A stretch of DNA of 20,132 nucleotides, from the NCBI GenBank assembly GCA_030685015.1, contig JAUXWS010000061.1:1-20132 (forward strand). The letters run 5' to 3'. The translations under genes were made by a program, and so were the position numbers. The notes below the pieces were generated by a model that saw only the letters and a list, made by a program, of their open reading frames with translations, ran no database searches and was not told the origin of the DNA. This document shows, in pieces, positions 2,564-17,257 of this stretch. The first letter of the stretch is position 1. Each line of letters opens with the position of its first letter. This DNA is from a bacterium. GTDB taxonomy: Bacteria > CAIWAD01.

Positions 2564-2639
2564 ACCAACCCGGCACGGGCTTTGCGCGGAAAATGGGGCG
2601 CGATTGCCCAACCAACCGCCGCACGGCTTCAGCAGACCT

Positions 2640-2804
2640 AGCAGCCTGTCGGGCTTGGGCCTTGGATGGGATTCGCGCCCAAATCGAGGCCAGTTTTTCG
2701 GAATTTTCGCAGAGCATACTGGTGGTCTGTTCAAGAAAATTGCGGAAAATCCGGACCGATTGGGGCGATGAAGACCGCCAAGTGGCCAAGTCCGACAGGC
2801 TGCT
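2640..2804 (+). repeat. 165-bp element with 19-bp terminal inverted repeats, copy A
   Basis: The left end (2640-2658) reads AGCAGCCTGTCGGGCTTGG. The right end (2786-2804) is its inverse complement apart from one base. The interior matches copy B at 14518-14747 closely in the opposite orientation, apart from an insertion in B. It contains no convincing gene: open frames across it are short or lack ribosome binding sites and homology that I recognise. It fills most of the gap between the terminator at 2563 and the protease start at 2907. Its size and inverted ends fit a MITE- or REP/BIME-like non-autonomous repeat. No clear flanking target-site duplication is visible, and no transposase is present in the window. 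Confidence 0.8.
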
Positions 2805-2906
2805 GGCGCGACGCTGCCGCCTCCCTTCGGGATCGGGCGGGGCAATCAAATGTCTTGCCAACTGAACAAGTGAAGACGGGCCGCCGTCAAGCAGGAAGGG
2901 ATCACG

Positions 2907-5432
2907 ATGAAACAACTTGCTGTCATGTTGCTCTCGGCCGGCGTCGCCGCCGCGGGGACATTCTCTCCGGGTCTGGAGCGTCTCGTGGCCGACCGTCCCG
3001 GTGGGGAGACGATGACCGTGCTGCTGGCCATGCGCGAGCAGGCGGACATCACGACCCTCAGCGCCGAACTCAGCGCCCGCCGGGTCACGCGCGCCGAGCG
3101 CAACCGGCAGGTGGTGGAGCGTTTGACGGAGACGGCTGGAGTCTCCCAGGCCGCCTTGCTGGCCGAGCTGGAGCAGCTCAAGGCCGCGGGCAAGGTCGAA
3201 GGCTACACGCCTTATTGGATCACCAACGCCGTGGTTGTGCGCGCTCCCCTGGCCATCCTGCGCCAGCTGGCGGCGCGGGAGGACGTGGCGGTGGCGGAGC
3301 CCGATCTGCGGGTGGAGCTGATCCAGCCCATCCTGCCCGAGGGAGGCCCGGTGGAAGACGGTGGCAATGGTCAGCGCACGCCGGAGGCGGGCGTGACAGC
3401 CGTGCGCGCTCCCCAGGTCTGGAGCGAGTTGGGCATCACGGGCACGGGCGCCCTGGTGGGCGGCATCGACACCGGCGTGCTCGGCACACACACGGCGCTG
3501 AGTTCCCGCTGGCGTGGCAACAACGGACATCCCGCCAGCCAGTGCTGGATCGACGCGGCCAACCTGGGCCACACCACGCCGCAGGATGGGCATGGCCACG
3601 GCACCCACACCATGGGCACGATGGTGGGCGGCGCTCCCGGCGACGAGGTGGGCGTGGCCCCAGGGGCGCAGTGGATCGCCAGCAACTGCATCAACATGGG
3701 CACGGGCGCGGCCTTCGACAACGCCGTGATCGCCTCCTTCCAGTTCATGGCCAACCCTGACGGCAACCCGAACACCATCGACGACGTGCCGGACGTGGTG
3801 CAGAATAGCTGGGGCGTCAACGAAGGCTTCAGCGGCTACTTCGATTGTGACAGCCGCTGGTGGGCGGCCATTGACAACTGCGAGGCGGCGGGGGTCTGCG
3901 TCACCTGGTCCGCCGGCAACGAGGGTCCGGGCAGCACCACCCTGCGCAGCCCGGGGGATCGCGCCCTGACGCCCTACAATTGCTTCTCGGTGGGCGCCAC
4001 CAGCGCCTTCTCCCCTTACACCATCGCCAGCTTCTCCTCGCGCGGGCCCAGCGGCTGTGGCGGCGCCTTCGCCATGAAGCCGGAGGTCTCGGCCCCCGGC
4101 GTGGACACGCGCAGCTGCTACAACAACGGCGGCTACACCGTGATGAGCGGCACCTCCATGGCCGGACCGCACGTGGCGGGAGTGGTGGCTCTCATGCGCA
4201 GCGCCAACCCGGACCTGGAGGTGGATCTCATCAAGCAGATCCTGATGGATACGGCCGTGGACCGGGGATCGGCCGGCGAGGACAACACCTACGGCCACGG
4301 CACGGTGGACGCCTACGAGGCGGTGCTGGCCGCCTTGGCCGGTTTCAACGACCTCTACCCGCCCATCATCCTGCTGCTGGAGACGGACCTGGCCCTGGCC
4401 GGCCAGCCCCTGACCGTGGCGGCCCGCGTCACCGACGCCAGCGGCCTCTCCTCCGTGACGCTTGACTGGCGTCTGGCGGAGGGCGAATGGCAGACCCTGC
4501 CCATGTCCCAGAGCGGACTTGTCTGGTCGGCCCAGATTCCCGGCCAGACGGGCGGCGCCACCCTGGAGTTCCGCGTCACGGCCGTGGATGCCTCGGAGAA
4601 CGTCAACAGCGCCACCACACCGGTGGGCAGCCGGGTGGTCTACACCCGGATCCACGCCGACGGCTTCAACGGAGCATCAGCCTTCACCCACGAGGGCGGC
4701 GGCGGCCTGACCGACCAGTGGCACCTGGAGAGCGCCCGCGCCTTCGAGGGCAGCCACAGCTGGAAGTTCGGCGGCACGGGCACGGGCAACTACGCCAATG
4801 ACGCAGGCGGCATCCTGACCAGCCCGACCCTGCCCCTGCCCGCCGGCGCGACGGAGATCACGGCCGCCATCCGATCCTGGATCGCCGCGGAGACCTCCGG
4901 CGCCTACCCGGACTCCTGCTACGACGGCGGCAAGTGGGAGATGAGCGTGAACGGCGGCCCCTGGCAGGACGCCCTGCCGGCCCCGGCCTATTCGCATGCT
5001 CTGCGTGGCGGCACCGCCACCGCCGCGCTGCGGGCCTGGCTGGGCTTCCCGGTGCGCCTCTACAGCGGCATCGCGGACTGGACCGTGCTCAGCGCGGTCG
5101 TGCCGCCGGCCGCCTCCACCGTGCAATTCCGCTGGCTCTTCGGAACGGACGTGGGCACGGTGCGAGAGGGCTGGTACCTGGATGACTTCCGGCTCCTGGC
5201 CCTGGTGGCGCCGGTGGTGGGAGCGCCGGTGGACGACCTGTCCATCAGTTGGTCGGACGGCGTGGCCACCCTGGATTGGAGTCCCCTGCCCGGCGCCCTT
5301 TCCTACAAGATCTATGCCAGCGAAGTGGCATGGGATGACACGCCGCTCCTGGTGGGCGAAGTGGCGACACCGTCCTTCCAACATTCCGGGGCGGGCACCA
5401 TGCGCTTCTATCAGGTGCGGGTCGTCTACTAA
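2907..5432 (+). CDS. Secreted subtilisin-family (S8) serine protease with C-terminal beta-sandwich modules
   Basis: This 841-residue protein starts at ATG 2907, six bases after an AGGAAGGG ribosome binding site. The order is: a short signal peptide (MKQLAVMLLSAGVAAAG); an inhibitor-I9-like propeptide region to about residue 145; the S8 catalytic domain with Asp188 (GGIDTG), His231 (GHGTHTMG), oxyanion Asn338 (SAGNEG) and Ser417 (GTSMAGPHVAG), so the triad is complete; an Ig/Fn3-like module at about 484-573, related to the tandem modules of the upstream gene; a jelly-roll-like domain at about 580-770 ending in WYLDDFRLL; and an Fn3-like end domain (about 772-841). It should be an active extracellular endopeptidase. 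Substrate is unknown. There is no T9SS sorting domain at the C-terminus. Copy A of the TIR element lies just upstream and a terminator just downstream. Confidence 0.95.
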   Translation: MKQLAVMLLSAGVAAAGTFSPGLERLVADRPGGETMTVLLAMREQADITTLSAELSARRVTRAERNRQVVERLTETAGVSQAALLAELEQLKAAGKVEGYTPYWITNAVVVRAPLAILRQLAAREDVAVAEPDLRVELIQPILPEGGPVEDGGNGQRTPEAGVTAVRAPQVWSELGITGTGALVGGIDTGVLGTHTALSSRWRGNNGHPASQCWIDAANLGHTTPQDGHGHGTHTMGTMVGGAPGDEVGVAPGAQWIASNCINMGTGAAFDNAVIASFQFMANPDGNPNTIDDVPDVVQNSWGVNEGFSGYFDCDSRWWAAIDNCEAAGVCVTWSAGNEGPGSTTLRSPGDRALTPYNCFSVGATSAFSPYTIASFSSRGPSGCGGAFAMKPEVSAPGVDTRSCYNNGGYTVMSGTSMAGPHVAGVVALMRSANPDLEVDLIKQILMDTAVDRGSAGEDNTYGHGTVDAYEAVLAALAGFNDLYPPIILLLETDLALAGQPLTVAARVTDASGLSSVTLDWRLAEGEWQTLPMSQSGLVWSAQIPGQTGGATLEFRVTAVDASENVNSATTPVGSRVVYTRIHADGFNGASAFTHEGGGGLTDQWHLESARAFEGSHSWKFGGTGTGNYANDAGGILTSPTLPLPAGATEITAAIRSWIAAETSGAYPDSCYDGGKWEMSVNGGPWQDALPAPAYSHALRGGTATAALRAWLGFPVRLYSGIADWTVLSAVVPPAASTVQFRWLFGTDVGTVREGWYLDDFRLLALVAPVVGAPVDDLSISWSDGVATLDWSPLPGALSYKIYASEVAWDDTPLLVGEVATPSFQHSGAGTMRFYQVRVVY

Positions 5433-5455
5433 GGCGCCCGGCCGCAAGCAGATCG

Positions 5456-5487
5456 GCGCCGGATTCCACTTGGGGTCCGGCGCTTTC
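5456..5487 (+). terminator. Terminator after the subtilisin gene
   Basis: The stem GCGCCGGATTCC pairs with GGGGTCCGGCGC (12 bp including two G-U pairs) around an ACTT loop and is followed by TTTCCCTT. It lies 24 bases after the stop and just beyond the end of the convergent spmB gene, so it separates two converging transcripts. Confidence 0.8.
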
Positions 5488-5489
5488 CC

Positions 5490-6038
5490 TTATCCGAACA
5501 TGACGCGGCAGATCCACAGCGCCGCCAGCAGGCCGGCGGCGTCGGCCAGCAGGCCGGCGATCAGGGCATGGCGAGTGCGGCGGATGCCCACCGAACCGAA
5601 GTAGACGGCCAGCACGTAGAAGGTCGTCTCGGTGGAGCCGTACATGGTGCTGGCCAAGCGGCCGATGAAGGAGTCGGGGCCGTGCACCTGAATGAGTTCG
5701 GTGACCAGGCCCAGGCTGCCCGAACCGGAGAGGGGACGCATCAGGGCGGCAGGGAGCGCCTCCACCGGGAATCCGATGGCCGCCGTGAGCGGTGCCAGCA
5801 GGCCGGCCAACAGATCCAGGGCGCCGGAGGCGCGAAACATGCCGATGGCCACCAGAATGGCCACCAGGTAGGGAATGATGCGCAGAGCCACCTCGAAGCC
5901 GCCCTTGGCCCCTTCGATGAACTCCTCGTAGAGCTTGACTCGGCGCGCCACGGCGAAGACGGGAATGGCGACGAAAAGGAATGGCACCAGGGCGTGTGAG
6001 AAGGCGTCGATGGCCGGGCGGAGCAGCTCAACCGTCAT
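5490..6038 (-). CDS. spmB: Spore maturation protein B family (nucleoside recognition/gate domain) membrane protein
   Basis: This 182-residue polytopic membrane protein (B. subtilis SpmB is about 178) has hydrophobic segments near residues 15-30, 50-90, 138-152 and 158-178. The conserved middle PLSGSGSLGLVTEL...DSFIGRLASTMYGSTETTFYVLAVYFG is characteristic of SpmB and the Gate domain. In Bacillus the SpmA/SpmB pair is needed for spore core dehydration. Homologues are common in bacteria that do not form spores, where the transported substrate is not established. The start at 6038 lies inside the end of spmA (11-base overlap), with a GGGAGG ribosome binding site, so translation is probably coupled. 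Nothing else in the window suggests sporulation. Confidence 0.93.
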   Translation of the reverse strand: MTVELLRPAIDAFSHALVPFLFVAIPVFAVARRVKLYEEFIEGAKGGFEVALRIIPYLVAILVAIGMFRASGALDLLAGLLAPLTAAIGFPVEALPAALMRPLSGSGSLGLVTELIQVHGPDSFIGRLASTMYGSTETTFYVLAVYFGSVGIRRTRHALIAGLLADAAGLLAALWICRVMFG

Positions 6039-6648
6039 GGCGCGCCTCCCCGCCTTGCTCGGCGGGCTGGATGGGGAAGAAGCGCGGCAAGAGGCGGCTG
6101 GCCAGGATGGCCACCACCGTGGCGATGCCCGAGGCGACCAGGGTGGTTCCCACGATCTCCGCCGGTTGGGCGCTGCCGGCGCCGGCCCGCACGGCGATGA
6201 TGGTGGTCGGGATAAGGGTGATGCTGGCGGTGTTGATGGCCAGGAAGGTCACCTGGCTGTTGCTGGCCGTGTCCTTGCGCGGATTGAGTTCCTGCAGCTG
6301 CTCCATCGCTTTCAGGCCCAGGGGCGTGGCGGCGTTGCCCAAGCCCAGCCAGCTGGCGCTGATGTTGAGCAGCATGGAGCCCAGCGCGGGATGACCATCG
6401 GGAATGTCCGGGAAGAGGCGGCGAAAGATGGGGCGGATTGCCTTGGCCAGCAATTGGATCATTCCCGCCTTCTCCGCGACTCGCATCAGGCCCAGCCACA
6501 GGCTCATGACACCGATGAGGGAAAGGGCGATGGTCACGGCCACGCCGGCCATGTCGAAGGCGGCCTTGCTCACCTCGTCCAGGCGACCGGTGAAGGCGCC
6601 CACCACGACGCTGCCCACCACGAGGGCCAGCCAGATCCAGGTCATCAT
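6028..6648 (-). CDS. spmA: Spore maturation protein A family (nucleoside recognition/gate domain) membrane protein
   Basis: This 206-residue membrane protein has the SpmA pattern: an N-terminal transmembrane helix (MMTWIWLALVVGSVVVGAF), the segment SLIGVMSLWLGLMRVAEKAG, a DIPDGHPALGSMLLNISASWLGLGNAATPLGLKAM block that is highly typical of the family, and TFLAINTASITLIPTTIIAVR. It is close to the usual length (about 196). The start is ATG 6648, six bases after AGGAG; a second ATG follows directly at 6645. It forms a two-gene operon with spmB. The pair probably makes a membrane complex; its role outside sporulation is unknown. Confidence 0.93.
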   Translation of the reverse strand: MMTWIWLALVVGSVVVGAFTGRLDEVSKAAFDMAGVAVTIALSLIGVMSLWLGLMRVAEKAGMIQLLAKAIRPIFRRLFPDIPDGHPALGSMLLNISASWLGLGNAATPLGLKAMEQLQELNPRKDTASNSQVTFLAINTASITLIPTTIIAVRAGAGSAQPAEIVGTTLVASGIATVVAILASRLLPRFFPIQPAEQGGEARHDG

Positions 6649-6718
6649 GGGCTGCTCCTAGGTTTTTCTGGTTGAGCGGGAGGATGGCCCTCCGCGACCG
6701 GGACATCTACCGCGAAGA

Positions 6719-6748
6719 TATCAATCGGGCCTTCCCCCAACATGTCAA
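6719..6748 (-). promoter_or_regulatory. Possible promoter for spmA-spmB
   Basis: On the - strand TTGACA (6748-6743) is followed after 18 bases by TTGATA (6724-6719). An overlapping TATCTTCG (6720-6713) differs at one defined base from the TAnnTTTG box seen elsewhere in the window, but has only a partial -33 match. Either would give a leader of about 55-65 bases. Prediction only. Confidence 0.3.
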
Positions 6749-6772
6749 CCGGATGCAAATGAACGGTTCAGT

Positions 6773-6788
6773 TGTGATCCGCGTCACA
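6773..6788. promoter_or_regulatory. Crp/Fnr-family type operator palindrome
   Basis: The sequence is TGTGATCCGCGTCACA, which is TGTGA-N6-TCACA with both half-sites perfect for the E. coli CRP core consensus. It lies in the spmA/pepN intergenic region, centred about 132 bases upstream of the spmA start and about 350 upstream of pepN. Which gene it controls cannot be read from the sequence. Confidence 0.45.
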
Positions 6789-6826
6789 TGCGATGAAGCC
6801 ATGTGTTCCGAACGATCTGCCCGATC

Positions 6827-6843
6827 TTGCACAAATTGTGCAA
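6827..6843. promoter_or_regulatory. Perfect palindrome TTGCACAA-A-TTGTGCAA, probable operator
   Basis: Two perfect 8-base half-sites flank a central A. The inner TGCAC-N5-GTGCA resembles, with one extra spacer base, the TGCNC-N4-GTGCA box reported for LexA in Fibrobacter succinogenes. The regulator is not encoded in this window. Confidence 0.4.
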
Positions 6844-6917
6844 TTCCCAGCCGCTGACCCGCACAAGCCTTGTTGACTGTTAACAGGTTTGAAACTGGCA
6901 CACGATTCGCCTTAAGC

Positions 6918-6932
6918 AAGCTGAATCAGCTT
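6918..6932. promoter_or_regulatory. Palindrome AAGCTGA-A-TCAGCTT
   Basis: This 15-base dyad has the same half-sites as the core of the larger palindrome at 19534-19562, upstream of recG and the small gene. Because it recurs in two divergent intergenic regions, a shared operator is plausible. Confidence 0.4.
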
Positions 6933-6940
6933 TGTCAAGG

Positions 6941-7046
6941 CCTGCGGCAGCAGGTGGTTCCCTCGTGCATGAACCATGAGCGGAACGGTGGAGTCGGGTA
7001 GGCAGCCGGACTCATGCAGAATAGCCCGGAGCAATCCGGGCTTTCT
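6941..7046 (+). ncRNA. Candidate structured RNA or leader ending in a terminator
   Basis: Three elements occur in order: hairpin CCTGC-GGCA-GCAGG (6941-6954); a long-range stem TGCATGA (6966-6972) with TCATGCA (7012-7018), which encloses and overlaps an alternative hairpin GAGTC/GACTC (6991-6995 with 7009-7013); and a terminator hairpin at 7023-7042. No coding sequence fits: the only ATG frames give peptides of 10 and 30 residues without clear ribosome binding sites. It could be a small RNA or an attenuator/riboswitch-like leader of pepN. It does not match any riboswitch consensus that I can recall, nor 4.5S or tmRNA. The 5' end is undefined. Confidence 0.35.
7023..7046 (+). terminator. Terminator upstream of pepN
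   Basis: AGCCCGGA-GCAA-TCCGGGCT is a perfect 8-bp stem with a GCAA tetraloop, followed by TTCT. It is oriented for + strand transcription and ends about 80 bases before the pepN start. No annotated + strand gene lies before it in the intergenic region, so it implies a short transcript or attenuation. Confidence 0.65.
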
Positions 7047-7076
7047 ATATCTCCTCCACAAATTCTAATTTCAGTC

Positions 7077-7100
7077 GGTTGACAGTGTTGATGGTCAACC
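7077..7100. promoter_or_regulatory. Inverted repeat GGTTGAC-N10-GTCAACC just before pepN
   Basis: Two perfect 7-base arms lie 29-52 bases upstream of the pepN ATG. The left arm contains TTGACA (7079-7084), a possible -35 element, but no good -10 or TAnnTTTG box follows at the usual distance. It may be an operator over the pepN promoter or a hairpin in its leader. Confidence 0.3.
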
Positions 7101-7128
7101 TGATTTCAATAGTAAGAAAGGCCGCACG

Positions 7129-9783
7129 ATGGCTCGCCAAACCCGCGACATCCAGCTAAAGGATTATAATCCCTCAAGTTGGCAGATACATTCGGCAAAT
7201 CTTCTGTTCGACCTGTATGACGACCATGCCTTGGTGCATGCCCGGCTTGAATTGTCGCCCCGGCCTGGCCGGCCGCCGGCCGAGCTGCGCCTCGCGGGCG
7301 AGGCCTTGGACTTGATCAGCGTGGCCGTGGATGGCGCCGTGGCGCCCGCCGGCTCCTGGCGCGTCGAGCAAGGCGAATTGATCATCAGCGGTTTGCGCGG
7401 CGAGCATGTGGTGGAGACGGTCTCCCGCATCCATCCCGCCGCCAACACCGAGTTGTCGGGGCTTTACCTTTCCGACGGCATCTTTTGCACCCAGTGTGAA
7501 GCGGAGGGCTTCCGCCACATCACCTGGTTCCTGGACCGGCCCGATGTCATGTGCCTGTTCACGACCACCATCCAGGCTGATCGGGAGCGCTGCCCGGTCC
7601 TGCTCTCCAATGGCAACCTGGAGGACAGCGGAGAACTGGAGGATGGCCGGCACTGGGCGCGGTGGTCGGATCCCTTTCCCAAGCCGAGCTACCTCTTTGC
7701 CATGGTGGCCGGCCGGCTGGAACACATCGAGGATCGTTTCACCACGGCCAGCGGCCGGGACGTGGCCCTGCGCATCTACACTGAGGCCCACAACGTCCAC
7801 AAGTGCGGCTTCGCCATGGAGTCCCTCAAGCGGGCGATGGCCTGGGACGAACAGGCCTACGGCCGCGAGTACGATCTGGATATCTTCATGATCGTCGCCG
7901 TGGACGCCTTCAACATGGGCGCCATGGAGAACAAGGGCTTGAACATCTTCAACAGCTCGCTGGTGCTGGCCCTGCCCGAGGCCACCACCGACGACACCTT
8001 CGACAGCATCGAAGGCGTGGTGGCCCACGAGTACTTCCACAACTGGACGGGGAATCGCATCACCTGCCGGGACTGGTTCCAGATCACGCTGAAGGAGGGG
8101 TTGACCGTCTTCCGCGACCAGGAGTTCTCCGCCGACATGGGTTCGCGGGCCGTCTGCCGTATTTCGGCCGTGCAGCTCCTGCGCGGCCGGCAGTTCCCCG
8201 AGGACGCCAGCCCCATGGCCCATCCCATCCAACCCGTCAGCTACCAGAAGATCGACAACTTCTACACGGCCACCGTTTACGAGAAGGGCGCCGAAGTCAT
8301 CCGCATGATGCACACGCTGCTTGGTCCGGAGGGCTGGCGGCGGGGCATGGATTGCTACTTCGCCCGCCACGACGGACAGGCCGTGACGACGGAGGACTTC
8401 GTCAAGGCGCTGGAGGACGGCTCCGGGCGGGATCTGGGACAGTTCCGCCGCTGGTACCGGCAGGTGGGCACGCCCCGCCTCACCGTGCGCGAGAACTGGG
8501 ATCCCGCGGGGGGCGAGCTCCACCTGGAGCTGTCCCAGCAGGTGCCGGGCTGGGCGGCGGGGGCCGAGGCCGGTCCCCTGCACATTCCCGTGGCGATCGG
8601 CCTGCTGGACAAGGAAGGCCGGGAGCTGCCCACTCGCCTGCATGAGGAGGCGGATGCACAGCCGGCCGGCACGCGACTGCTCGAGCTGCGCGACGAGCGC
8701 CGCCGCTTCACCTTCACGGGCTTGACGGCACGCCCCCACCTCAGCCTGCTGCGCGGCTTCAGCGCCCCGGTCCGCGTGGAGCGCGAGACCGCCCGGGAGG
8801 AGCTGGGCTTCCTGCTGGCCAGGGACTCGGACGCCTTTGCCCGCTGGGAGGCAGGGCAGGCCCTCTACACCCGATCCCTGCTGGCCGCCGTGGAAGGGTT
8901 GCGGAAGGGGCGCGGCGCGGAGGTGGATCCCATCATGCTTGTGGCCTGGGGAGCCACCCTGGCCGACGCCGATCAGGATCCCGCCTTCATCGCCCTGGCC
9001 CTCCAACTGCCGGGCTACACCGTGCTGGAACAGGAGTACGATGAGGTGCCGGTTGAGGCGCTGGTCCAGGCCCTGGATCTGCACCGCCGCCAGCTGGCCG
9101 TGACACATGGCGACGCGCTGATGGCCGTCTACGAGCGCTATGCACGTGAACTGGCGGCCCGTCCCTATGATCGAGAACCACGCTCCGCCGGGCAGCGGAC
9201 TCTCAAGAACGCCTGCCTGGCCTTGCTGGGCGAGGCGGAGGTGAAGGAAGCGGCTCGTCTGGCCATGCGCCAGTATCGCGGGGCGCAATGCATGTCGGAC
9301 ACGATGGGCGCCCTGGCGGCCATGACCCACTGCCACAGGCCCGAGCGCGAAGAGGCGCTGGCGGACTTCGCCGCACGCTGGGGTCAGGATCCGGTGGTGA
9401 TGAACTCCTGGTTCGCCGTGCAGGCGGTCGCGCGGCGGGAGGACACCCTGGAGCGCATCGGCGCTCTCATGCAACATCCGGCCTTCGACATCAAAAACCC
9501 CAACAAGGTGCGCGCCCTCATCAGCACCTTCGCCGCGCGCAACCCGGCCCGCTTCCACAAGGCGGACGGAAGCGCCTACCGCTTCTTCACGGATCGGGTG
9601 GTGGAGGTGGATGCGCTCAACGCGACCATGGGCAGCAGCATGGTGCGGCCCCTCATGTCCTGGCGCCGCCATGAGCCGGCGCGCGCCGCCCTGCTCAAGG
9701 AGCAGCTGGAACGGTTGGCCGCGACGGAGGGGCTGTCCGCCAATTCCTACGAGATCGTCTCCAAGAGCCTGGCGGAGGCCTGA
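7129..9783 (+). CDS. pepN: Aminopeptidase N (M1 family zinc metallopeptidase)
   Basis: This 884-residue protein is close to E. coli PepN (870) and is collinear with it. It removes N-terminal residues from peptides in the cytoplasm; no signal peptide is present. The exopeptidase motif GAMEN has its Glu at 267. The zinc site is HEYFH (His300, Glu301, His304) with the third ligand Glu323 in LKEGLTVF. Spacing agrees with E. coli His297/His301/Glu320. A Tyr in the NFYTATVYEKG segment corresponds to the transition-state tyrosine. The C-terminal helical half (from about residue 545) is of the long gammaproteobacterial-type PepN. The start is ATG 7129 with only a weak AAGAAAGG ribosome binding site. 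It is the first gene of a tight three-gene operon: the next ATG begins one base after its stop codon. Confidence 0.97.
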   Translation: MARQTRDIQLKDYNPSSWQIHSANLLFDLYDDHALVHARLELSPRPGRPPAELRLAGEALDLISVAVDGAVAPAGSWRVEQGELIISGLRGEHVVETVSRIHPAANTELSGLYLSDGIFCTQCEAEGFRHITWFLDRPDVMCLFTTTIQADRERCPVLLSNGNLEDSGELEDGRHWARWSDPFPKPSYLFAMVAGRLEHIEDRFTTASGRDVALRIYTEAHNVHKCGFAMESLKRAMAWDEQAYGREYDLDIFMIVAVDAFNMGAMENKGLNIFNSSLVLALPEATTDDTFDSIEGVVAHEYFHNWTGNRITCRDWFQITLKEGLTVFRDQEFSADMGSRAVCRISAVQLLRGRQFPEDASPMAHPIQPVSYQKIDNFYTATVYEKGAEVIRMMHTLLGPEGWRRGMDCYFARHDGQAVTTEDFVKALEDGSGRDLGQFRRWYRQVGTPRLTVRENWDPAGGELHLELSQQVPGWAAGAEAGPLHIPVAIGLLDKEGRELPTRLHEEADAQPAGTRLLELRDERRRFTFTGLTARPHLSLLRGFSAPVRVERETAREELGFLLARDSDAFARWEAGQALYTRSLLAAVEGLRKGRGAEVDPIMLVAWGATLADADQDPAFIALALQLPGYTVLEQEYDEVPVEALVQALDLHRRQLAVTHGDALMAVYERYARELAARPYDREPRSAGQRTLKNACLALLGEAEVKEAARLAMRQYRGAQCMSDTMGALAAMTHCHRPEREEALADFAARWGQDPVVMNSWFAVQAVARREDTLERIGALMQHPAFDIKNPNKVRALISTFAARNPARFHKADGSAYRFFTDRVVEVDALNATMGSSMVRPLMSWRRHEPARAALLKEQLERLAATEGLSANSYEIVSKSLAEA

Positions 9784-9784
9784 C

Positions 9785-10261
9785 ATGTCGCGACCCAGCT
9801 GGGACGAGTACTTCATCGGCCTGGTGCGGGAAGTGGCCAAGCGCGCCACCTGCGACCGGGGGAAGAGCGGCTGCCTGATCGTGCGCGACAAGCGCATCAT
9901 CTGCACGGGCTACGTGGGATCCCCGCCCGGACTGCCCCACTGCGACGAGGCGGGCCACCTCATGAAGCAGCTGGTGGATGACGACGGACAGGTTTCCCGC
10001 CACTGCGTGCGCACCATCCACGCCGAGCAGAACGCCATCTGCCAGGCGGCGCGCCACGGCACGGCCCTGGACGGCGCCACCCTCTATTGCACGATGGAAC
10101 CCTGCCGCACCTGCGCTCTCCTCATCATCAGCTGCGGTATCCGGCGTGTGGTGGCGGAGCGCCGCTATCACGCCGCCGGCGAGACAAGGGAGTTGTTCCA
10201 GATGGCGGGAGTGGACCTGGTCGTGCAGAACGACGAAGTGGAACGCTACGAGAACCAGTGA
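9785..10261 (+). CDS. dCMP deaminase (ComEB/deoxycytidylate deaminase family)
   Basis: This 158-residue zinc-dependent deaminase converts dCMP to dUMP, feeding thymidylate synthesis. The N-terminus MSRPSWDEYFIGLVREVAKRA and the segment GYVGSPPGLPHCDEAGH are typical of the family. The zinc ligands are His79 in HAEQNA, with Glu81 as the proton shuttle, and Cys107 and Cys110 in PCRTC. The start is ATG 9785, one base after the pepN stop (TGACATG), with a GGAGG ribosome binding site inside the end of pepN. This predicts translational coupling. A tRNA or other cytidine deaminase is less likely, given the PPGLPHC motif. Confidence 0.93.
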   Translation: MSRPSWDEYFIGLVREVAKRATCDRGKSGCLIVRDKRIICTGYVGSPPGLPHCDEAGHLMKQLVDDDGQVSRHCVRTIHAEQNAICQAARHGTALDGATLYCTMEPCRTCALLIISCGIRRVVAERRYHAAGETRELFQMAGVDLVVQNDEVERYENQ

Positions 10262-10265
10262 CCAC

Positions 10266-10961
10266 ATGCCGGACGACGGTGGAAGAGTGTCCCGCCCGCC
10301 CCGTCGCCCGCCCGCCCTCAACGTCGGCCAGTCCTGTCGGCACTGCCGCATGCTGGCCGACCTTTGCGTCTGTCAGGTGGTGCCGCGCCGGATGACGCGC
10401 ACCCGGCTGGTTCTGATCATGCACCACATCGAGGCCCGCCGGCAGAGCAACACCGGCCGCCTCGCCCTGAGCGCGCTGGAGCATGCGGAGATCCTTCTGC
10501 GCGGCCGGCCTGATCAAAGCCTTGACCTGTCCCGCTTGATCGATCCGGCGCGCCGCCTGCTCCTGCTCTTTCCCAGTCCGGAGGCCGAGCTGCTGGATGA
10601 GGCCTACGTCGCCCGCGACGACCGCCCGGTCACTCTCATCGTGCCCGACGGCACCTGGAACCTGGCCCGCAAGATTCCCCTGCGCCAGCCGGAGCTGCGT
10701 CCCCTGCCCCGGGTCCGCCTGGGCCTGGAGGAGCCATCCGCCTACCGCCTGCGCCACTCGCCGCATCCGGACAAGCTGTCCACCCTGGAGGCCATCGCCC
10801 GGGCCCTGGGCGTCCTCGAAGGGCCGGAGCTGCGCCGGGACCTGGAGACGCTCTTCCAGGTGGCCCGCGATCGCATCCTCTGGAGCCAGGGCAAGCTGCG
10901 CGAGGAACTCGTGGCTGGTGGCCTGCCCTTCCGCGCCCGGCCCTGGGCGGCCAAGGCCTGA
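10266..10961 (+). CDS. DTW domain protein, probable tRNA-uridine aminocarboxypropyltransferase
   Basis: This 231-residue protein carries the DTW-domain features: an N-terminal cysteine cluster (CRHCRMLADLCVC, about residues 20-32), the segment LVLIMHHIEARRQSNTGRLA, the signature PDGTW with Asp128, and STLEAIARALG near the C-terminal third. Characterised members (E. coli TapT/YfiP) transfer the 3-amino-3-carboxypropyl group from S-adenosylmethionine to uridine in tRNA to make acp3U. Here the motif reads DGTW, a usual variant. The start is ATG 10266, four bases after the deaminase stop, in the same operon as pepN. The functional link to the other two genes is not evident. An alternative is an rRNA-modifying relative. 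Confidence 0.88.
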   Translation: MPDDGGRVSRPPRRPPALNVGQSCRHCRMLADLCVCQVVPRRMTRTRLVLIMHHIEARRQSNTGRLALSALEHAEILLRGRPDQSLDLSRLIDPARRLLLLFPSPEAELLDEAYVARDDRPVTLIVPDGTWNLARKIPLRQPELRPLPRVRLGLEEPSAYRLRHSPHPDKLSTLEAIARALGVLEGPELRRDLETLFQVARDRILWSQGKLREELVAGGLPFRARPWAAKA

Positions 10962-10973
10962 CCCCGCATCAAT

Positions 10974-11010
10974 CAAGAAAAGCCCGACGCCTGCAAGCAG
11001 GGGCCGGGCT
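10974..11010 (-). terminator. Second, distal - strand terminator
   Basis: On the - strand AGCCCG...CGGGCT encloses a CCTG-CTTG-CAGG inner hairpin and is followed by TTTTCTTG. It lies beyond the terminator at 11075-11110, so it is either a backup or the end of a separate short transcript. It also stands between the converging DTW gene and the secreted-protein gene. Confidence 0.6.
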
Positions 11011-11074
11011 ATGAGTACGTTGGGGATGCAATCAGGGGAGGCTGGAGCCGTTGTCCTGCATCAATCAGGGGCAG

Positions 11075-11110
11075 GGAGAGAAAAGACCGGGCCTCGCAAG
11101 AGGCCCGGTC
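11075..11110 (-). terminator. Terminator of the T9SS-type secreted protein gene
   Basis: An 11-bp perfect stem (11085-11095 with 11100-11110) with a 4-base loop is followed on the - strand by CTTTTCTCTCC. It starts 13 bases past the stop codon. Confidence 0.85.
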
Positions 11111-11122
11111 CAGTTAATAGAC

Positions 11123-12181
11123 TTACTTCACCAGCACCATCTTGCGGGTGTCGGTGACACCGGCGCCCTCGAAAGTGTAGAAGTACACGCCCGAGGTGAG
11201 ACCGGAGGCATCGAAGACCACGTTGTGGTTGCCGCGGGAGGTCAGGCCGTTCACCAGGGAGGCCACCTCACGACCGGCCAAATCGAAAACCTTCAGGCTG
11301 GCCACGCCGGTCTCCGGCATGGTGAAGGAGATCGTCGTGGTGGGGTTGAAGGGGTTCGGGTAGTTCTGGCCCAGGGTGAAGTCCATGGGCAGCTCATCCG
11401 CCGTCACCTCGTCGCCATTGTCGTCGATCACGCAGGCACAGATGTCATCGATGTACTGGTAGGCGCCGGTCGCGGCGGGAACAAAGCCGCCAAAACCGAT
11501 CCAACCGCCCGTCAGGCCGCCCACGGCCGTCCAGGGCACAATCACCTCTTCCGCAAGCATTTCGAAGAGGGTGACCTTCACGGCGTTTGTGAAATCGTCG
11601 TAGCGGATGCGGATCAGGTGGAAGTTCTGGTCGTAGATCGGCAGTGCGCCGCTGGTGACAAAGGCACCGTCCTCATAGACATCCAGCGTGGCGCCGGCGG
11701 GCGTGCGGTCGATGATGAAAGAGAGGCCGGCGGCCGCGATAGGGGTCAGGGTGGCGAAGGTGGCGGCGTCCATGGAGGCGGGCGTCAGGTAGAAGCCCAA
11801 GGCGTCGGCGGCCTCCTGCACGGCGAAGTAGAAGGTGACGTCGAGGGTGCGGCCAGTCCAGTCATAGCTGGCAGGACTCTGCACATAAGTCTTGGCGTTG
11901 AAGCCCGAACCGGCGGTGCGGTTCATGCGCAGGACATCATAGGCGCCAATGACCGACGGATCACCCGTGCTGGGCCACTCGCTGCCGCTGTGGGTGGCGT
12001 CGCTGGTGCAGAAGCACTCCGTCCACACGCAGCCGGCGTCAAGGGTGGCGGCCATGTACTGACCCGGGTGGAAAGGGAACCCCACGTCCCCGCCCGTGTC
12101 AGGCTCGACCACCGGATGACCGGCCAAAGCGACGGCCGCCATGGTGATCGAGACAGTAAGCAGTGTTGCGAACCTCTTCAT
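11123..12181 (-). CDS. Secreted lectin-like protein with T9SS-type C-terminal sorting domain
   Basis: This 352-residue protein starts at ATG 12181 after an AAGGGGG ribosome binding site. The frame extends upstream to another ATG, but only this start gives a clean signal peptide (MKRFATLLTVSITMAAVALA, cleavage before GHP). The middle (about 35-255) is a beta-rich domain resembling concanavalin-like or LamG folds, with YDWTGRTLDVTFYFAV, LIRIRYDDFTNAVKVTLFE and GGWIGFGGF; this fold assignment is inferred. It has a few cysteines (GCVWTECFC, ICAC) that could form disulfides. Residues 267-352 form the sorting domain: LGQNYPNPFNPTTTISF, LKVFDLAGREV, SGVYFYTF, TRKMVLVK. Such domains direct proteins through the type IX secretion system to the cell surface, or act as FlgD-like Ig domains in FCB bacteria. 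The biological role of the N-terminal domain is unknown. Confidence 0.93.
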   Translation of the reverse strand: MKRFATLLTVSITMAAVALAGHPVVEPDTGGDVGFPFHPGQYMAATLDAGCVWTECFCTSDATHSGSEWPSTGDPSVIGAYDVLRMNRTAGSGFNAKTYVQSPASYDWTGRTLDVTFYFAVQEAADALGFYLTPASMDAATFATLTPIAAAGLSFIIDRTPAGATLDVYEDGAFVTSGALPIYDQNFHLIRIRYDDFTNAVKVTLFEMLAEEVIVPWTAVGGLTGGWIGFGGFVPAATGAYQYIDDICACVIDDNGDEVTADELPMDFTLGQNYPNPFNPTTTISFTMPETGVASLKVFDLAGREVASLVNGLTSRGNHNVVFDASGLTSGVYFYTFEGAGVTDTRKMVLVK

Positions 12182-12307
12182 CAGAAACCCCCTTCGTCTT
12201 ATTGGCGACCCGGGATCCCTGCGCGGAGGCAGTGGACACACGTGTCGCGTGACACCATTTGTTTCGGCTTCTGGAGAAGGAGGTGGGTTTGATTGCTAAT
12301 TCGAGGG

Positions 12308-12338
12308 CAAATCTAGGGGCTGCAAAGCTAAGATGCAA
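12308..12338 (-). promoter_or_regulatory. Bacteroidota-type promoter (TTG-N20-TAGATTTG) for the T9SS-type gene
   Basis: On the - strand TTG (12338-12336) is followed after exactly 20 bases by TAGATTTG (12315-12308), a full match to TAnnTTTG. The same sequence and spacing occur upstream of recG. The predicted start near 12300 gives a leader of about 120 bases. Confidence 0.6.
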
Positions 12339-12434
12339 GGGTTTTCTAAGAATTCTCGCGAGCGACCGGGCGCTGTGTCCAGGTCGGCCTTCCCATTCCA
12401 ATTCGTGCGGCGCTTGATGTGATAAGGAAGACGA

Positions 12435-13511
12435 TCAATGGGATGGCCCTCGTTGCCGCCAGGCTTGGAACAGAAGGGGCAGGGCCATGGCCGGAATGAC
12501 GAACAAAAAGAAGATGCGATGGCTTGGCCCAAAGGCCGCATGTTGAATTGTGTGCAGCACTAGCAGGACTGTGTAAATTAAGTACAAAACAAGTAAACCT
12601 ACTCCCTCTAGCCTTGTAATGGTATGTTCGGTGAAAAAGACAGGCAGGCAGGCGGCAGCTGCCACCAAGAGCAGGGGGTAATCCAGTTGGAAAAGGATGG
12701 CGGGTACGGGGATGCCCCCTCCGGCGACGACGGCGCTGGGTCCCAGCACGCCCAGGATGTTGGCGATGTTGCTGCCCACCACGCCCCCCACGGCGATGTC
12801 CCGCTGGCCACGCAGGGTGGCCATGATGGCGGTGGCGATTTCAGGCAGGGAGGTGCCGATGGCGACGACGGTGAGTCCGATCACCATCTGGCTGATGCCC
12901 AGCCGCTGCGCCAGGGCCATGGCCCCCTGCACCAGCCAGTGGGAGCCCAGCACAAGCAGCGCCAGACCGGTCAGGGTGGTGAGAAGGGGGATGAGCCAGC
13001 CGCGGGATGTGGCGGGGGGGTGGGCGTCGGCCGGCGTCAGGGGCGCGGCCTCGGGCCTTTCATCGGCCTTGCCCAGCCGATAGGCCAAGGCCGAATAGGC
13101 CAGCATGCCCAGGGTCAGGAGCAGCCCGTCCAGGCGCCCGATGCGGCCGTCCAGCGAGAGCAGGACAAGCAGGATCGAGACGCCGATCATGATGGGAACA
13201 TCCACCCGCACCAGCAGGCGGGTCACCACCAGCGGCGTGATGAGGGCGGCCAGGCCCAGCACCACCAGCACGTTGAGGATGTTGCTGCCCACCACATTGC
13301 CCAGCACCAGGTCGACGCTGGCGGAGCCGCCCAGGGCCGCCTTCAGGCTCACCGCCAGTTCCGGCGAGCTGGTGCCGAAGGCGACGACGGTCAAGCCGAT
13401 CATCAGGGGGGAGAGGCCCAGCCGCGCCGCCAGCGTGGAGGCGCCGCGCACCAGCAGCTCGGCTCCCGCCACCAGCAGCACGAGGCCAAGGATGAAAAGA
13501 AAGGCGGTCAT
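12435..13511 (-). CDS. Calcium/sodium antiporter of the CaCA family (YrbG-like)
   Basis: This 358-residue inner-membrane exchanger has the two inverted alpha repeats of the family: GLTVVAFGTSSPELAVSL (Glu51) with GNVVGSNILNVLVVLG, and GLTVVAIGTSLPEIATAI (Glu224) with GGVVGSNIANILGVLG. These carry the ion-binding acidic residues. About ten hydrophobic segments are visible, with a hydrophilic loop around residues 147-170 between the halves. The C-terminus is longer than in E. coli YrbG (325), adding two hydrophobic stretches and a basic tail. It begins 45 bases after the preceding peptidase-like gene and is probably the last gene of the recG-priA-peptidase operon. No clear terminator was found after it. 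Confidence 0.94.
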   Translation of the reverse strand: MTAFLFILGLVLLVAGAELLVRGASTLAARLGLSPLMIGLTVVAFGTSSPELAVSLKAALGGSASVDLVLGNVVGSNILNVLVVLGLAALITPLVVTRLLVRVDVPIMIGVSILLVLLSLDGRIGRLDGLLLTLGMLAYSALAYRLGKADERPEAAPLTPADAHPPATSRGWLIPLLTTLTGLALLVLGSHWLVQGAMALAQRLGISQMVIGLTVVAIGTSLPEIATAIMATLRGQRDIAVGGVVGSNIANILGVLGPSAVVAGGGIPVPAILFQLDYPLLLVAAAACLPVFFTEHTITRLEGVGLLVLYLIYTVLLVLHTIQHAAFGPSHRIFFLFVIPAMALPLLFQAWRQRGPSH

Positions 13512-13556
13512 CGGTGAAGTGATCCTCAGGGCACGTGGTTGCTGAACAAGTCCGGG

Positions 13557-14540
13557 CTACACCAGGAATTCGTCGTCGTCCTCCTCCTCGGCCTCGCGGG
13601 ACCAGCGGTCCAGGATGCGCCTGGCCCGACGGCGCCGAATCCACCAGACGACCCCCGCCAAAACGATGATGCCGCCCCACACCCAACTGGAGAAGTCCAT
13701 CAGGAAGTAAAGGCCGCGCTGACTTTTCAACCAGTCCTGCCAATCGCTCTCGAAGCGGTAGTAGCCGCCGCCGGTGGCCTGGTCGAAGGCCTCGTTGAAG
13801 CCTGTGCCGCGCCCGACCAGGGTCAGCATGTGGACCAGGGCGACCCGGCCGTGGCGCTCCAGGAAGAAGCGCACGGCGCTCTCGGCCTCCATGTAGGCCA
13901 GCTCCGCCTGCTGGCTGCTAAAGGAGTGCAGGTTGTCCAGCTGCGTCAGAGGAATGAGGGATCCTGTCGTGATGGCCTTGGAGAGGCTGATCCCCGCCCC
14001 GTCCGGGCGGATGCCGTAGGGCAGGCCGGAGAGGCGGACGGCCAGTCCCTCCTCGAGCCAGACGGGGATCCAGTTGCCGCGCCGCAGCCGGCCCACGCCC
14101 AGGTGGGTCATCTCGTGACGGATGGTGGCGCCGGCGTTGCGCTCCACATCGCCCCAGCGCGGACTCTTGAGGACGATGCGGCCTTGCTCCGGGTTGGCCA
14201 CGGCGCCCGCCCAGTGGGGCGTGCCGCTGCCCGCCAGGCGGTAGAAGTGGGCGGGATCCCAGGCCACCACGATATGGCTGCCGCGGAAATTGCGCAGGTC
14301 CAGCTCATCGGCCAGACGCTGCTCGCTGGCCTGGACCACGCCCGCCACATGGGCGGCGAAGGACTGGTCGACCCGGTGGTAGTAGAGGCGGAAGTCGCCC
14401 AGGTTCTGCTCGGCAAAGGCGGCCGCCACCGGCGCGTCCAGGCCTGCCAACACGGCGGCGGGCGGGGCCGCCGGCGCGGGCAGGGCCAGCAGCAGCCACA
14501 GGAGAAGGATGGGGGCCAGCAGCCTGTCGGACTTGGCCAC
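13557..14540 (-). CDS. Membrane-anchored HExxH metallopeptidase-like protein (peptidase MA-like gluzincin)
   Basis: From the chosen GTG at 14540 the protein has 327 residues. This start gives a good signal peptide (VAKSDRLLAPILLLWLLLALPAPA, initiator V read as Met). No later start keeps it, and the frame stays open upstream without a convincing ribosome binding site. The mature part has RHEMTH (His142, Glu143, His146) and WLEEG (Glu164 the likely third zinc ligand), the gluzincin pattern of peptidase MA-like proteins. Near residues 280-300 a single transmembrane helix (VWGGIIVLAGVVWWI) is followed by RRRRARR and an acidic cytoplasmic tail (EEEDDDE). The catalytic part should therefore face the periplasm. 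The substrate is unknown. The start codon lies inside copy B of the TIR element. It lies downstream of priA and upstream of the antiporter on the same strand. Confidence 0.82.
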   Translation of the reverse strand: MAKSDRLLAPILLLWLLLALPAPAAPPAAVLAGLDAPVAAAFAEQNLGDFRLYYHRVDQSFAAHVAGVVQASEQRLADELDLRNFRGSHIVVAWDPAHFYRLAGSGTPHWAGAVANPEQGRIVLKSPRWGDVERNAGATIRHEMTHLGVGRLRRGNWIPVWLEEGLAVRLSGLPYGIRPDGAGISLSKAITTGSLIPLTQLDNLHSFSSQQAELAYMEAESAVRFFLERHGRVALVHMLTLVGRGTGFNEAFDQATGGGYYRFESDWQDWLKSQRGLYFLMDFSSWVWGGIIVLAGVVWWIRRRRARRILDRWSREAEEEDDDEFLV

Positions 14541-14747
14541 TTGGCGGTCGTCGCATGGCTTACGCCATGCTTCCTGCCGAAGCTTCGCTTCGGCCAAGCC
14601 CAATCCGCTTGCGGATTGGGCCCAATCGGTCTGGATTTTCCGCAAGTTTCTTGAACAGACCACCAGCATGCCCTGCGAAATTTCCGAACAACCGGCCTCG
14701 ATCTGGGCGCGAATCCCATCCAAGGCCCAAGCCAGATAGGCTGCTAG
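14518..14747 (-). repeat. 230-bp element with terminal inverted repeats, copy B
   Basis: Read on the - strand, this copy matches copy A (2640-2804) from the left end AGCAGCCT to the right end CCAAGTCCGACAGGCTGCT. Near the right end it has about 70 extra bases that fold into three hairpins (14553-14620). Its left terminal repeat is more diverged (AGCAGCCTATCTGGCTTGG) than its right. It begins five bases after the priA stop codon and its right end overlaps the start of the peptidase-like gene. Both copies have their right end toward the next gene on the same strand. Confidence 0.8.
14553..14620. repeat. Three back-to-back perfect hairpins inside copy B
   Basis: The hairpins are GCATGGC-TTAC-GCCATGC (14553-14570), GCCGAAGC-TTC-GCTTCGGC (14576-14594) and CCCAATCCGC-TT-GCGGATTGGG (14599-14620). 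The stems are perfect, of 7, 8 and 10 bp (9 bp with a usable loop in the last), with only 4-5 bases between them. They are absent from copy A. Confidence 0.85.
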
Positions 14748-14752
14748 GCGCG

Positions 14753-17257
14753 TCACATCACGCCCTGGGGGTCCATGTCGATGATCAAGCTCAGGTCGCG
14801 CTCCTTCAGGGCTTTGTTGAAGTATTCGCGGCAGGCCAGCGCCGCCTCGCGCAAGCGGCGGCCGCCAGCGTCCTGGTCGCGCCGGCTGCGCAAGAGCAGG
14901 TGGAAGCGGTACTCCCGCCGCACCATGCGCACCGGGGCCGGCCCAGGATTGAGCGCCCCCACCCGGGCCGGACGCGGCACCTCGTCGTAGAGGCGCCGAC
15001 AGGCCCGTTCGGCCAGGACCTCGTCGGCGGATTTGACAAGCAGCCGGCAAAGTCGCGTGAAGGGCGGGTAGCCGGACTGGTGGCGCACCTCCAGCTCCTC
15101 GTCGGCGAAGCCAAGGTAGTCATGGGCGGCGGCCTGCCGCAGGACGGGATGGTCGGGCGTCATGGTCTGCACCACGACGCGGCCGGGCAGTTCGCCGCGG
15201 CCGGCCCGCCCCGCCAGTTGGCTGACCAGCTGGAAACCCCATTCCCGCGCCCGGAAGTCCTGCAGGTTCAGCTCGGTGTCGGCCTGGATGACCCCGGCCA
15301 GGGTCACGCCCGTGAAATCCAGCCCCTTGGCCACGCCCTGCGTGCCCAGCAGGACCTCGAAGCGGCCCTCGTTGAAATCCCGCACCATGCGGATGTAGGC
15401 GCCGCGGCGCCGCGTGGTGTCGCGATCCATGCGCAGCAGGCGGACATCGGGCAGCAGCTCGGCCAGCTCCTCCTCGATCTTTTGCGTGCCGGCCCCCAGG
15501 AAGCCCAGCTCGGCGCCGCGGCAGGCTGGACAGGCCTCGGGGGTGGGCAGTTCCAGGCCGCAGAGATGGCAATGGCATTGGCCCGTGCTGCGGTGCCAGA
15601 CGAGCGAGACATCGCAGCGGGGGCAGTGCAGCACCTCGCCGCAGGCCGGGCATTGCAGCCAGGGCGAGTGGCCGCGCCTGTTCTGGAGGAGGATGGTCTG
15701 CCGTCCCGCCGCCCGCGCCGCCAGCAGCGCCTCCACCAGCACGCCGCTGAAGTTGCGCTGGGTGCGGCCGCGGCCGGCCAGCTGGTCGCGCTCGGCCTTC
15801 ATGTCCACCAGCTCCACCGGAGGCAGGGGGCGGTCCGCCACCCGGCGGGGAAGCTCCAGCAGCTGATAGCGGCCCTGGCGCACGTTCCACCAGGATTCCA
15901 GGGAGGGCGTGGCGCTGCCCATGAGAATGGGGATGCCCAGTTGCTGGGCACGCAGCACGGCGGCGTCGCGGGCATGGTAGCGGGGCGCCGGCTCCGCCTG
16001 CTTGAAGGAACTCTCGTGCTCCTCGTCCACCACGATGAGTCCCAGGCGGCGGATGGGGGCGAAGAGGGCGCTGCGGGCGCCCACCACCACGCGGATGGAG
16101 CCTTCGCGCAGGGCCCGCCAGATGGCGAAACGCTGCGCGCCCGAGAGCTGGCTGTGGATGACGGCCACATCCTGGCCGAGGTAGCCCTGGAAACGAGCCA
16201 CGATCTGCGGGGTGAGGGCGATCTCCGGCACCAGGACCAGCACGCCGCCGCCCGCTGCCCGCGTGCGCCGGGCCAGCTCGAGATAGACCTGGGTCTTGCC
16301 GCTGCCCGTCACGCCCCTCAGCAGGAAAGGTTGAAAGCGGCCCGGCCGCCGTCCGGGACCGGGCAGACAGGGCACCACCGCCGCCGCCACCTGTTCCTGC
16401 TCATCCGTGAGGATGATGTCGCGCACGCTGGCGTCCAGGTCGTAGCCCGAGGCGGAAGGCTCCGCCTCCTCCTCGTCCTCGCGCAGGACGCCGCCTTGCG
16501 CCAGGGAGCGGATCACGGCCGGGGTCCAGCCCTGGGCCAGCACCTCGGACCGCTCGAGGCGGCCATCCCCGGTGCCGCCCAGCAGCAGCATGAGCGCCGC
16601 CTGGCGCGGGGCGCGCCGTTCGCGCTCGGCCAGCTGGGCGCGGAACTCGGGCGTGCCGGCCGGGTGGACCAGGCCCAGGACGCGGCGGGTGGGGGCCCGG
16701 CGCCGTTCGCCGTCCAGGGCGTCGCGACGGACCAGGTGGCCGGCGGCGATGAGCTGGTTGAGGTCGTGATGAAAGGCGCCGCCCATCTCCTGGGCCAGCC
16801 AGGAACGGCTGACAGTGCCGCGCTCGCGGACCAGCCGCAGGATGGCCTCGCGGCGCGGCGTAAGTCGAAGGGGCCGGCGCAGGGCGGGATCGGCCTGCTC
16901 CTCCAGCCAGCAGCGCACCGTGCCGTTGATGCCGGGGGGCAAGGCCGCCTTCAGCACCTCGCCCGTGCTGCACAGGTAGTACTCGGCCAGGCGGGCCGCG
17001 AAGGCGACCAGGCCCTCGTCGAGCAGGGGCGTCTCGTCGATGAGGTCGAGCACGGGCTTGAGGCCGGGGGGCGGCTCCCGCCGCGCCACGGCGGCCACGT
17101 AACCGATCAGACGCTGGCCGCCCAGGGGCACCAGCACGCGCGAGCCGACGGCCAGGTCGGCGGCGAACTCGTCGGGGACGGCGTAGGAGTAGAGACGCGG
17201 CACGGGCAGGGGCAGGGCCACGTCGGCCAGCAGCGGCAGCGCGGAGGGCGGGGGCAT
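14753..17257 (-). CDS. priA: Primosomal protein N' / replication restart helicase PriA
   Basis: This 834-residue superfamily 2 helicase (E. coli PriA is 732) reloads the replisome at stalled forks. The N-terminal DNA-binding region begins MPPPSALPLLADVALPLPVPRLYSYAVP. Walker A is GVTGSGKT with Lys321. Walker B is VVDEEH (DEEH 411-414). The zinc-binding insert has nine cysteines between residues 536 and 579 (CPAC, CPRC, CHCHLC, CPAC), where eight ligands are expected. Later motifs include GTQGVAKGLDF and QLAGRAGRGELPG. The start is ATG 17257, which overlaps the recG stop by one base (TGATG), so the two genes are translationally coupled. The extra length lies mainly between the N-terminal domain and the helicase core. 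Copy B of the repeat begins five bases after the stop. Confidence 0.97.
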   Translation of the reverse strand: MPPPSALPLLADVALPLPVPRLYSYAVPDEFAADLAVGSRVLVPLGGQRLIGYVAAVARREPPPGLKPVLDLIDETPLLDEGLVAFAARLAEYYLCSTGEVLKAALPPGINGTVRCWLEEQADPALRRPLRLTPRREAILRLVRERGTVSRSWLAQEMGGAFHHDLNQLIAAGHLVRRDALDGERRRAPTRRVLGLVHPAGTPEFRAQLAERERRAPRQAALMLLLGGTGDGRLERSEVLAQGWTPAVIRSLAQGGVLREDEEEAEPSASGYDLDASVRDIILTDEQEQVAAAVVPCLPGPGRRPGRFQPFLLRGVTGSGKTQVYLELARRTRAAGGGVLVLVPEIALTPQIVARFQGYLGQDVAVIHSQLSGAQRFAIWRALREGSIRVVVGARSALFAPIRRLGLIVVDEEHESSFKQAEPAPRYHARDAAVLRAQQLGIPILMGSATPSLESWWNVRQGRYQLLELPRRVADRPLPPVELVDMKAERDQLAGRGRTQRNFSGVLVEALLAARAAGRQTILLQNRRGHSPWLQCPACGEVLHCPRCDVSLVWHRSTGQCHCHLCGLELPTPEACPACRGAELGFLGAGTQKIEEELAELLPDVRLLRMDRDTTRRRGAYIRMVRDFNEGRFEVLLGTQGVAKGLDFTGVTLAGVIQADTELNLQDFRAREWGFQLVSQLAGRAGRGELPGRVVVQTMTPDHPVLRQAAAHDYLGFADEELEVRHQSGYPPFTRLCRLLVKSADEVLAERACRRLYDEVPRPARVGALNPGPAPVRMVRREYRFHLLLRSRRDQDAGGRRLREAALACREYFNKALKERDLSLIIDMDPQGVM

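Follow-up and report, generated by a model that had tools for sequence, protein, structure and literature searches.

The repeat that occurs twice in the window (the whole 20,132-nt stretch of DNA analysed) is very probably a non-autonomous hairpin MITE with IS1182-type ends, targeted to CTAG and moved in trans. What we observed comprises its copies with their ends and flanks, empty sites, insertions at stop codons, an interior that shows both homology and covariation, and complete IS1182 elements bounded by the same ends; from these we infer that mobilisation in trans is by an IS1182 transposase. In the model that we propose, a DDE transposase of the IS1182 family, acting in trans, would recognise the terminal 15-19 bp as its repeats, excise the element and insert it at CTAG or a similar tetranucleotide, and this target would be duplicated as the 4-bp flank. 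Insertions would land between genes, exactly on stop codons, or in frame inside genes, and at stop codons the duplication would restore the TAG.

Copies in the window and across the genome

The first-pass annotation had reported two copies of one element more than 11 kb apart, at 2640-2804 (+) and 14518-14747 (-), and both are present there (Table 1). The lengths given, 165 and 230 bp, describe the same elements, but the true bodies are 161 and 224 bp between 4-bp flanks; similarly, the 19-bp terminal inverted repeats are real ends, except that the outermost two bases on each side belong to the flank. Copy 1 has the ends AGCAGCCTGTCGGGCTTGG and AGCAGCCTGTCGGACTTGG, whereas copy 2 now reads AGCAGCCTATCTGGCTTGG at its drifted outer end. 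Copy 2 is the longer by 63 bp because of three small hairpins, and the same insert recurs in a relative truncated on the left, elsewhere in the genome (G000:C28:33208-33315). Several older copies (L057, L059 and L060) have a different small hairpin, CCCGACGCGAGCGTCGGG, at the internal position that the three mini-hairpins occupy in copy 2.

Table 1. Coordinates of the element, its flanks and associated genes (window positions unless a locus is named).
Feature	Position	Strand	Basis or remark
Copy 1, left 4-bp flank CTAG	2638..2641	.	target-site copy
Copy 1, 161-bp hairpin body CAGCCTGTCGG...CCGACAGGCTG	2642..2802	+	genome-wide matches, folding, copy alignment, covariance match
Copy 1, right 4-bp flank CTGG	2803..2806	.	
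Peptidase-MA-like gene hit by copy 2	13557..14756	-	element-free orthologs in G001 and G002; open frame
Copy 2, gene-side 4-bp flank	14516..14519	.	CCAG on +, CTGG on -
Copy 2, 224-bp body	14520..14743	-	same element plus 63-bp insert (three small hairpins)
Copy 2, mini-hairpin 1, GCATGGCTTACGCCATGC	14553..14570	.	second copy of the insert at G000:C28:33208-33281
Copy 2, mini-hairpin 2, GCCGAAGCTTCGCTTCGGC	14576..14594	.	
Copy 2, mini-hairpin 3, GCCCAATCCGCTTGCGGATTGGGC	14598..14621	.	
Copy 2, outer 4-bp flank CTAG	14744..14747	.	
IS1182 transposase between the same ends	Zoogloea L167:309-1857		
IS1182 transposase between the same ends	Nitrospinae L106:1510-3112		

Copy 1 was compared with the whole of this genome (G000; 105 contigs, 3.61 Mb) and matched about 40 places, of which 18 span its full length with 95-100% identity. 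Once old and decayed copies are included the number rises to about 50, rather than only the two in the window, so that the genome-wide family predicted from two copies is borne out at a number far above chance. The 19-bp end, with up to three mismatches, matched 66+62 times versus 5+9 for a reversed control pattern. With copy 1 as query, about 20 copies were found in the sister genome G002 and about four weak ones in G001; among more distant genomes only G034 matched, over 24 bp and at chance level. The full element was not found in the viral contigs, phage records and plasmids searched.

The whole body of the element folds as a single hairpin (-100.9 kcal/mol, z -10.2) and is 161 bp long in most copies of the genus, as aligned with their flanks. 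As previously noted it encodes no transposase; the body is short, lacks such a gene and has no codon periodicity. We rejected a coding function, given the absence of 3-base periodicity (p 0.71) and the stops in many copies; a slight excess of open frames in some element frames has p values, 0.003 to 0.3, that ignore the kinship of the copies. Repeated hairpins around GGTGTCCGAC...GTCGGACACC, at L002:2719-3006 and L051:1312-2161, are perhaps another small repeat family.

Empty sites were found for both window copies: G002 lacks both, and G001 lacks copy 2. The neighbours of copy 1 are an 802-aa ORF and an S8-type peptidase gene, and the same gap in G002 is without the element, at a divergence too high for a base-exact reading. 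A G002 copy has its empty counterpart at 5433-5495 of the window, where the orthologous gene (5490-6038), which has no element, stops at the same codon. Copy 2 had been assigned to an intergenic gap but is actually inside the start of a peptidase-MA gene downstream of priA, three codons in, with the frame open throughout. In G001 and G002 this gene has no element and its GTG start overlaps the stop codon of priA, while in G000 copy 2 follows its codons GTG ACG CGC; with one 4-bp flank, the site reads GTG ACG CGC CTG GCC CCC ATC CTT, in register with the relatives. Judged from the sequence, the ancestral GTG start would lie at 14756-14754, outside the element, and copy 2 may supply a candidate new GTG start (14540-14538) plus a charged signal-peptide start.

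Target choice and the 4-bp flanks

The consensus of the flanks is CTAG on both sides (C 82-87%, T 75%, A 84%, G 98%), and in the aligned copies the flanking sequence is random beyond position -5. Left and right flanks are equal in 54 of 116 pairs versus 38 expected by chance, and among pairs other than CTAG in 6 of 32 versus 2.1 expected (p 0.008). As this agreement exceeds chance we take it as the mark of a 4-bp target duplication, though many pairs are unequal.

CTAG is itself very rare. Outside the elements, sampled loci of G000 contain 30 occurrences in 237 kb versus 696 expected from base composition, a depletion of approximately 23-fold, and those left comprise 8 stop codons, 17 intergenic sites and 5 within genes. 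On genes predicted with a simple codon-usage score of our own, not a standard gene finder, 12 of 49 copies sit exactly on a gene's TAG stop codon. A coding frame enters the element at 19 of the 92 flanks examined; this is the TAG frame at 14 of them (p 0.0004), and at 12 the flank TAG is precisely where the gene stops, with mostly non-coding sequence beyond. The insertion sites thereby mirror the distribution of the few remaining CTAG. We attribute the intergenic and stop-codon landing to the rarity of CTAG, which survives mainly between genes and as C-TAG stops. Insertions inside genes keep the frame at L002, L008, L043, L054 and copy 2 of the window, because the frames used have no stop and body plus flank add up to 165 bp, or 55 codons (228 bp in copy 2); on each strand two frames are mostly open. 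A target avoided except between genes and at stops, together with the 55-codon open-frame length, offers a simple account of how palindromic repeats could settle harmlessly. Two earlier generalisations do not hold: a strictly intergenic location is contradicted by copy 2 and several further copies that lie within genes, and copies do not as a rule point their right end towards the start of the following gene.

Simple target duplication does not predict the unequal flanks of many young copies. In about ten of these, CTAG borders one side alone and the opposite flank reads CTGG, CCAG or similar, although the bodies differ by only 2-5% from the consensus. The transposition intermediate of piggyBac has a TTAA overhang, and on this model the intermediate of our element could carry a 4-nt CTAG overhang from the donor, the true target being on the other side. 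One-sided CTAG despite such low body divergence is in keeping with this refinement, as is the gene-side CTGG of copy 2, which fits codon use (CTG 390, CTA 4). However, the process that depletes CTAG 23-fold could by itself quickly erode CTAG flanks, and the full IS elements examined bear CTAG on both sides, in a search that favoured such cases; we hold the refinement only tentatively and incline against it. The asymmetry reflects either rapid erosion of CTAG in a CTAG-avoiding genome or a carried CTAG overhang, and it raises a concrete question on the chemistry of IS1182 transposition.

Hairpin interior and the transposase link

The interior was compared across lineages with two covariance models. 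The first (R1), built from this genus on the interior only with the ends removed, matches proteobacterial elements at their interiors in 22 of 23 matches (best 1e-5 outside the genus). The second (R2), from nine Burkholderiales copies, gives the stronger test of homology when applied to this genus: 24 matches in 158 kb of its DNA, 24/24 on elements (best 7e-9), among them positions 2662-2782 in the interior of copy 1. With E values as low as 1e-14, R2 also recognises copies from Gammaproteobacteria and Desulfuromonadales and, genome-wide, finds multiple copies in Massilia, Duganella, Oxalobacteraceae and others, 23 matches in a Desulfuromonadales MAG, and 13 in G000, all on known elements. Judged from these comparisons, the interior is evidently an old hairpin family common to relatives in several phyla and not derived from the IS. 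One homologous MITE hairpin spans Pseudomonadota, Desulfuromonadales and the lineage of this genome, an unusually broad family that keeps its length and pairing while its sequence drifts. A sister-genome record (L179, DYSB01000005.1) bears the public label Acetofilamentum sp. (Bacteroidota).

Within the genus, paired cells stand at 94%, falling to about 45% when the partners are slid by one base, and compensatory double changes number 41 versus 13 in shuffles; 0 of 500 shuffles attain the observed score. Such covariation can also be produced by mutation that corrects imperfect palindromes, and selection for structure is thus one possible reading. It is conceivable, if unlikely, that the conserved substrate is the hairpin itself, on which IS1182-type transposases would act in its folded form (cruciform or single-stranded) while carrying a 4-nt CTAG overhang; this would explain why a pure hairpin of nearly constant length, about 160-166 bp, with compensated changes has persisted and spread across phyla. 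Were this true, the element would differ from ordinary MITEs, in which sequence is kept and not structure. We find it improbable that the repeat is instead a conserved structured RNA or 3'-UTR element, such as an mRNA stabiliser or terminator, that spreads by its usefulness with transposition secondary. The compensatory changes and the hairpin kept across phyla would suit such an RNA, and the quarter of copies lying exactly at stop codons would form the start of a 3' UTR, but CTAG targeting alone explains that position, palindrome-correcting mutation likewise yields compensatory changes, and some copies lie in divergent gaps or within genes. Moreover, a check against Rfam gave no match above the gathering score.

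Scanned with one element end, public genomes show matching ends in numerous Beta- and Gammaproteobacteria, in Verrucomicrobia and in other groups, paired mostly 162-166 bp apart, with a second group at about 203-207 bp. Two pairs about 1.55-1.6 kb apart, in Zoogloea and Nitrospinae (Table 1), enclose transposases of 452-454 aa assigned to the IS1182 family by NF033551 (376 and 317 bits, cut-off 270), and in Lysobacteraceae and Halieaceae partial IS1182 genes adjoin the element's end. ISAzo1 and IS1182 relatives on plasmids of Aromatoleum, Pseudomonas, Polaromonas, Marinobacter and Methylobacter have the same ends with CTAG on both sides, beginning CTAG-[C/G]AG[C/T][C/G]TGTCGG. In all, ISAzo1-type IS with these ends and flanks are found in Beta- and Gammaproteobacteria and in Nitrospinae. 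Since complete IS1182 elements share both the ends and the CTAG flanks, we name the transposase family as IS1182 (ISAzo1 type), which ties the homologous MITE hairpin to a named transposase group. The shared sequence between IS ends and MITE is no more than about 19 bp, and the two complete IS elements examined are without the hairpin interior. Ends about 1.53 kb apart in Acidovorax (L112) and a Betaproteobacterium (L178), where no IS1182-like transposase ORF was seen between them, were set aside.

A transposase flanked by the same ends, which had been proposed as a check, is present as IS1182 in other genomes, but none was found in G000, G001 or G002. The sole full IS1182 transposase of G000 (C43) is without the element's ends, and none of the unpaired ends inspected there outside the 165-200 bp elements bounds a transposase. 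One copy (G000:C28:14715-16430; L064:1516-3231) is interrupted close to the tip of its hairpin by an IS of 1.55 kb with a 467-aa transposase and the ends ACCCGGATTCTGCA; this IS was rejected as the partner because it belongs to the IS1380 family. The draft assemblies are fragmented and several contigs end within an element, so the partner IS may be missing from them; it has presumably been lost, is unassembled or lies elsewhere.

IS1272, a member of the same transposase family, is reported to replace existing stem-loops without target duplication (PMC5678879). That our element, itself a stem-loop, inserts in this manner is quite improbable. At L005:1490-1515, L007:1655-1680 and L036:1655 an inverted piece of the terminal repeat, 9-13 nt long and facing outward, adjoins the 4-bp flank directly, without the remainder of a second element, which would suit such replacement. 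Against this, the 4-bp flanks look duplicated, the outer flanks showed no complementarity when it was looked for, the flank comparison gave no signal of stem-loop replacement or of inverted flanks, and the empty site of copy 2 keeps the frame with a single 4-bp target and shows no loss of a stem-loop. Of the two enzymes first suggested for movement in trans, a DDE transposase is probable, whereas a TnpA_REP-like one is unsupported: despite its hairpin shape, its many copies and five Y1_Tnp (IS200/REP-type) genes in G000 (C41, C94, C6, C19 and C100; L048-L052), a REP/BIME-type repeat moved by a single-strand (HUH, Y1) TnpA_REP transposase is extremely unlikely, as the terminal inverted repeats and CTAG flanks match DDE-type IS1182 elements, the element is 165 bp rather than one or two REPs of 20-40 bp, and none of the five Y1 loci carries it within about 1.5 kb.

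Relation to known elements

The kind of element is already known. MITEPye1 of Paracoccus yeei, an IS1182-type hairpin MITE and the closest element described, is 159 bp, non-coding, with a long stem-loop and 4-bp direct repeats (PMC11578231, ISfinder); its 18-bp ends resemble those of the IS1182-family ISPye18, and it is thought to be moved in trans by an IS1182 transposase (PMC11578231). Compared by description only, it resembles our element in its length of about 160 bp, IS1182-type ends, 4-bp repeats and stem-loop, and the two are possibly of the same hairpin family. In contrast, MITEPye1 has 1-3 copies per chromosome, is intergenic, and has its partner IS in some strains (PMC11578231). Among IS1182 members, a 4-bp duplication or target is described for ISPse1 (PMC3281130) and, as GGCC, for ISPsy36 (PMC8027508). 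ISAzo1-type IS have nearly identical terminal repeats and CTAG flanks but differ in their transposase gene of about 450 codons and the absence of a hairpin interior. IS1272 shares with the element the transposase family and a link with stem-loops, yet the element shows a 4-bp duplication.

No paper in the literature searched prints the end sequence of the element in this context. As far as that literature shows, what is new is the homology of the hairpin across phyla, the link to ISAzo1-type ends, and the placement at stop codons and in frame. For this placement there is a likeness with the Rickettsia palindromic elements, repeats of about 150 bp of which some lie in frame in protein genes (PMC10969869). 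By description only, these resemble our element in being palindromic, of similar length and in some cases inserted in frame, but they belong to other organisms and in-frame insertion is much more frequent among them; the settling of our element at stop codons and in frame is a testable parallel.
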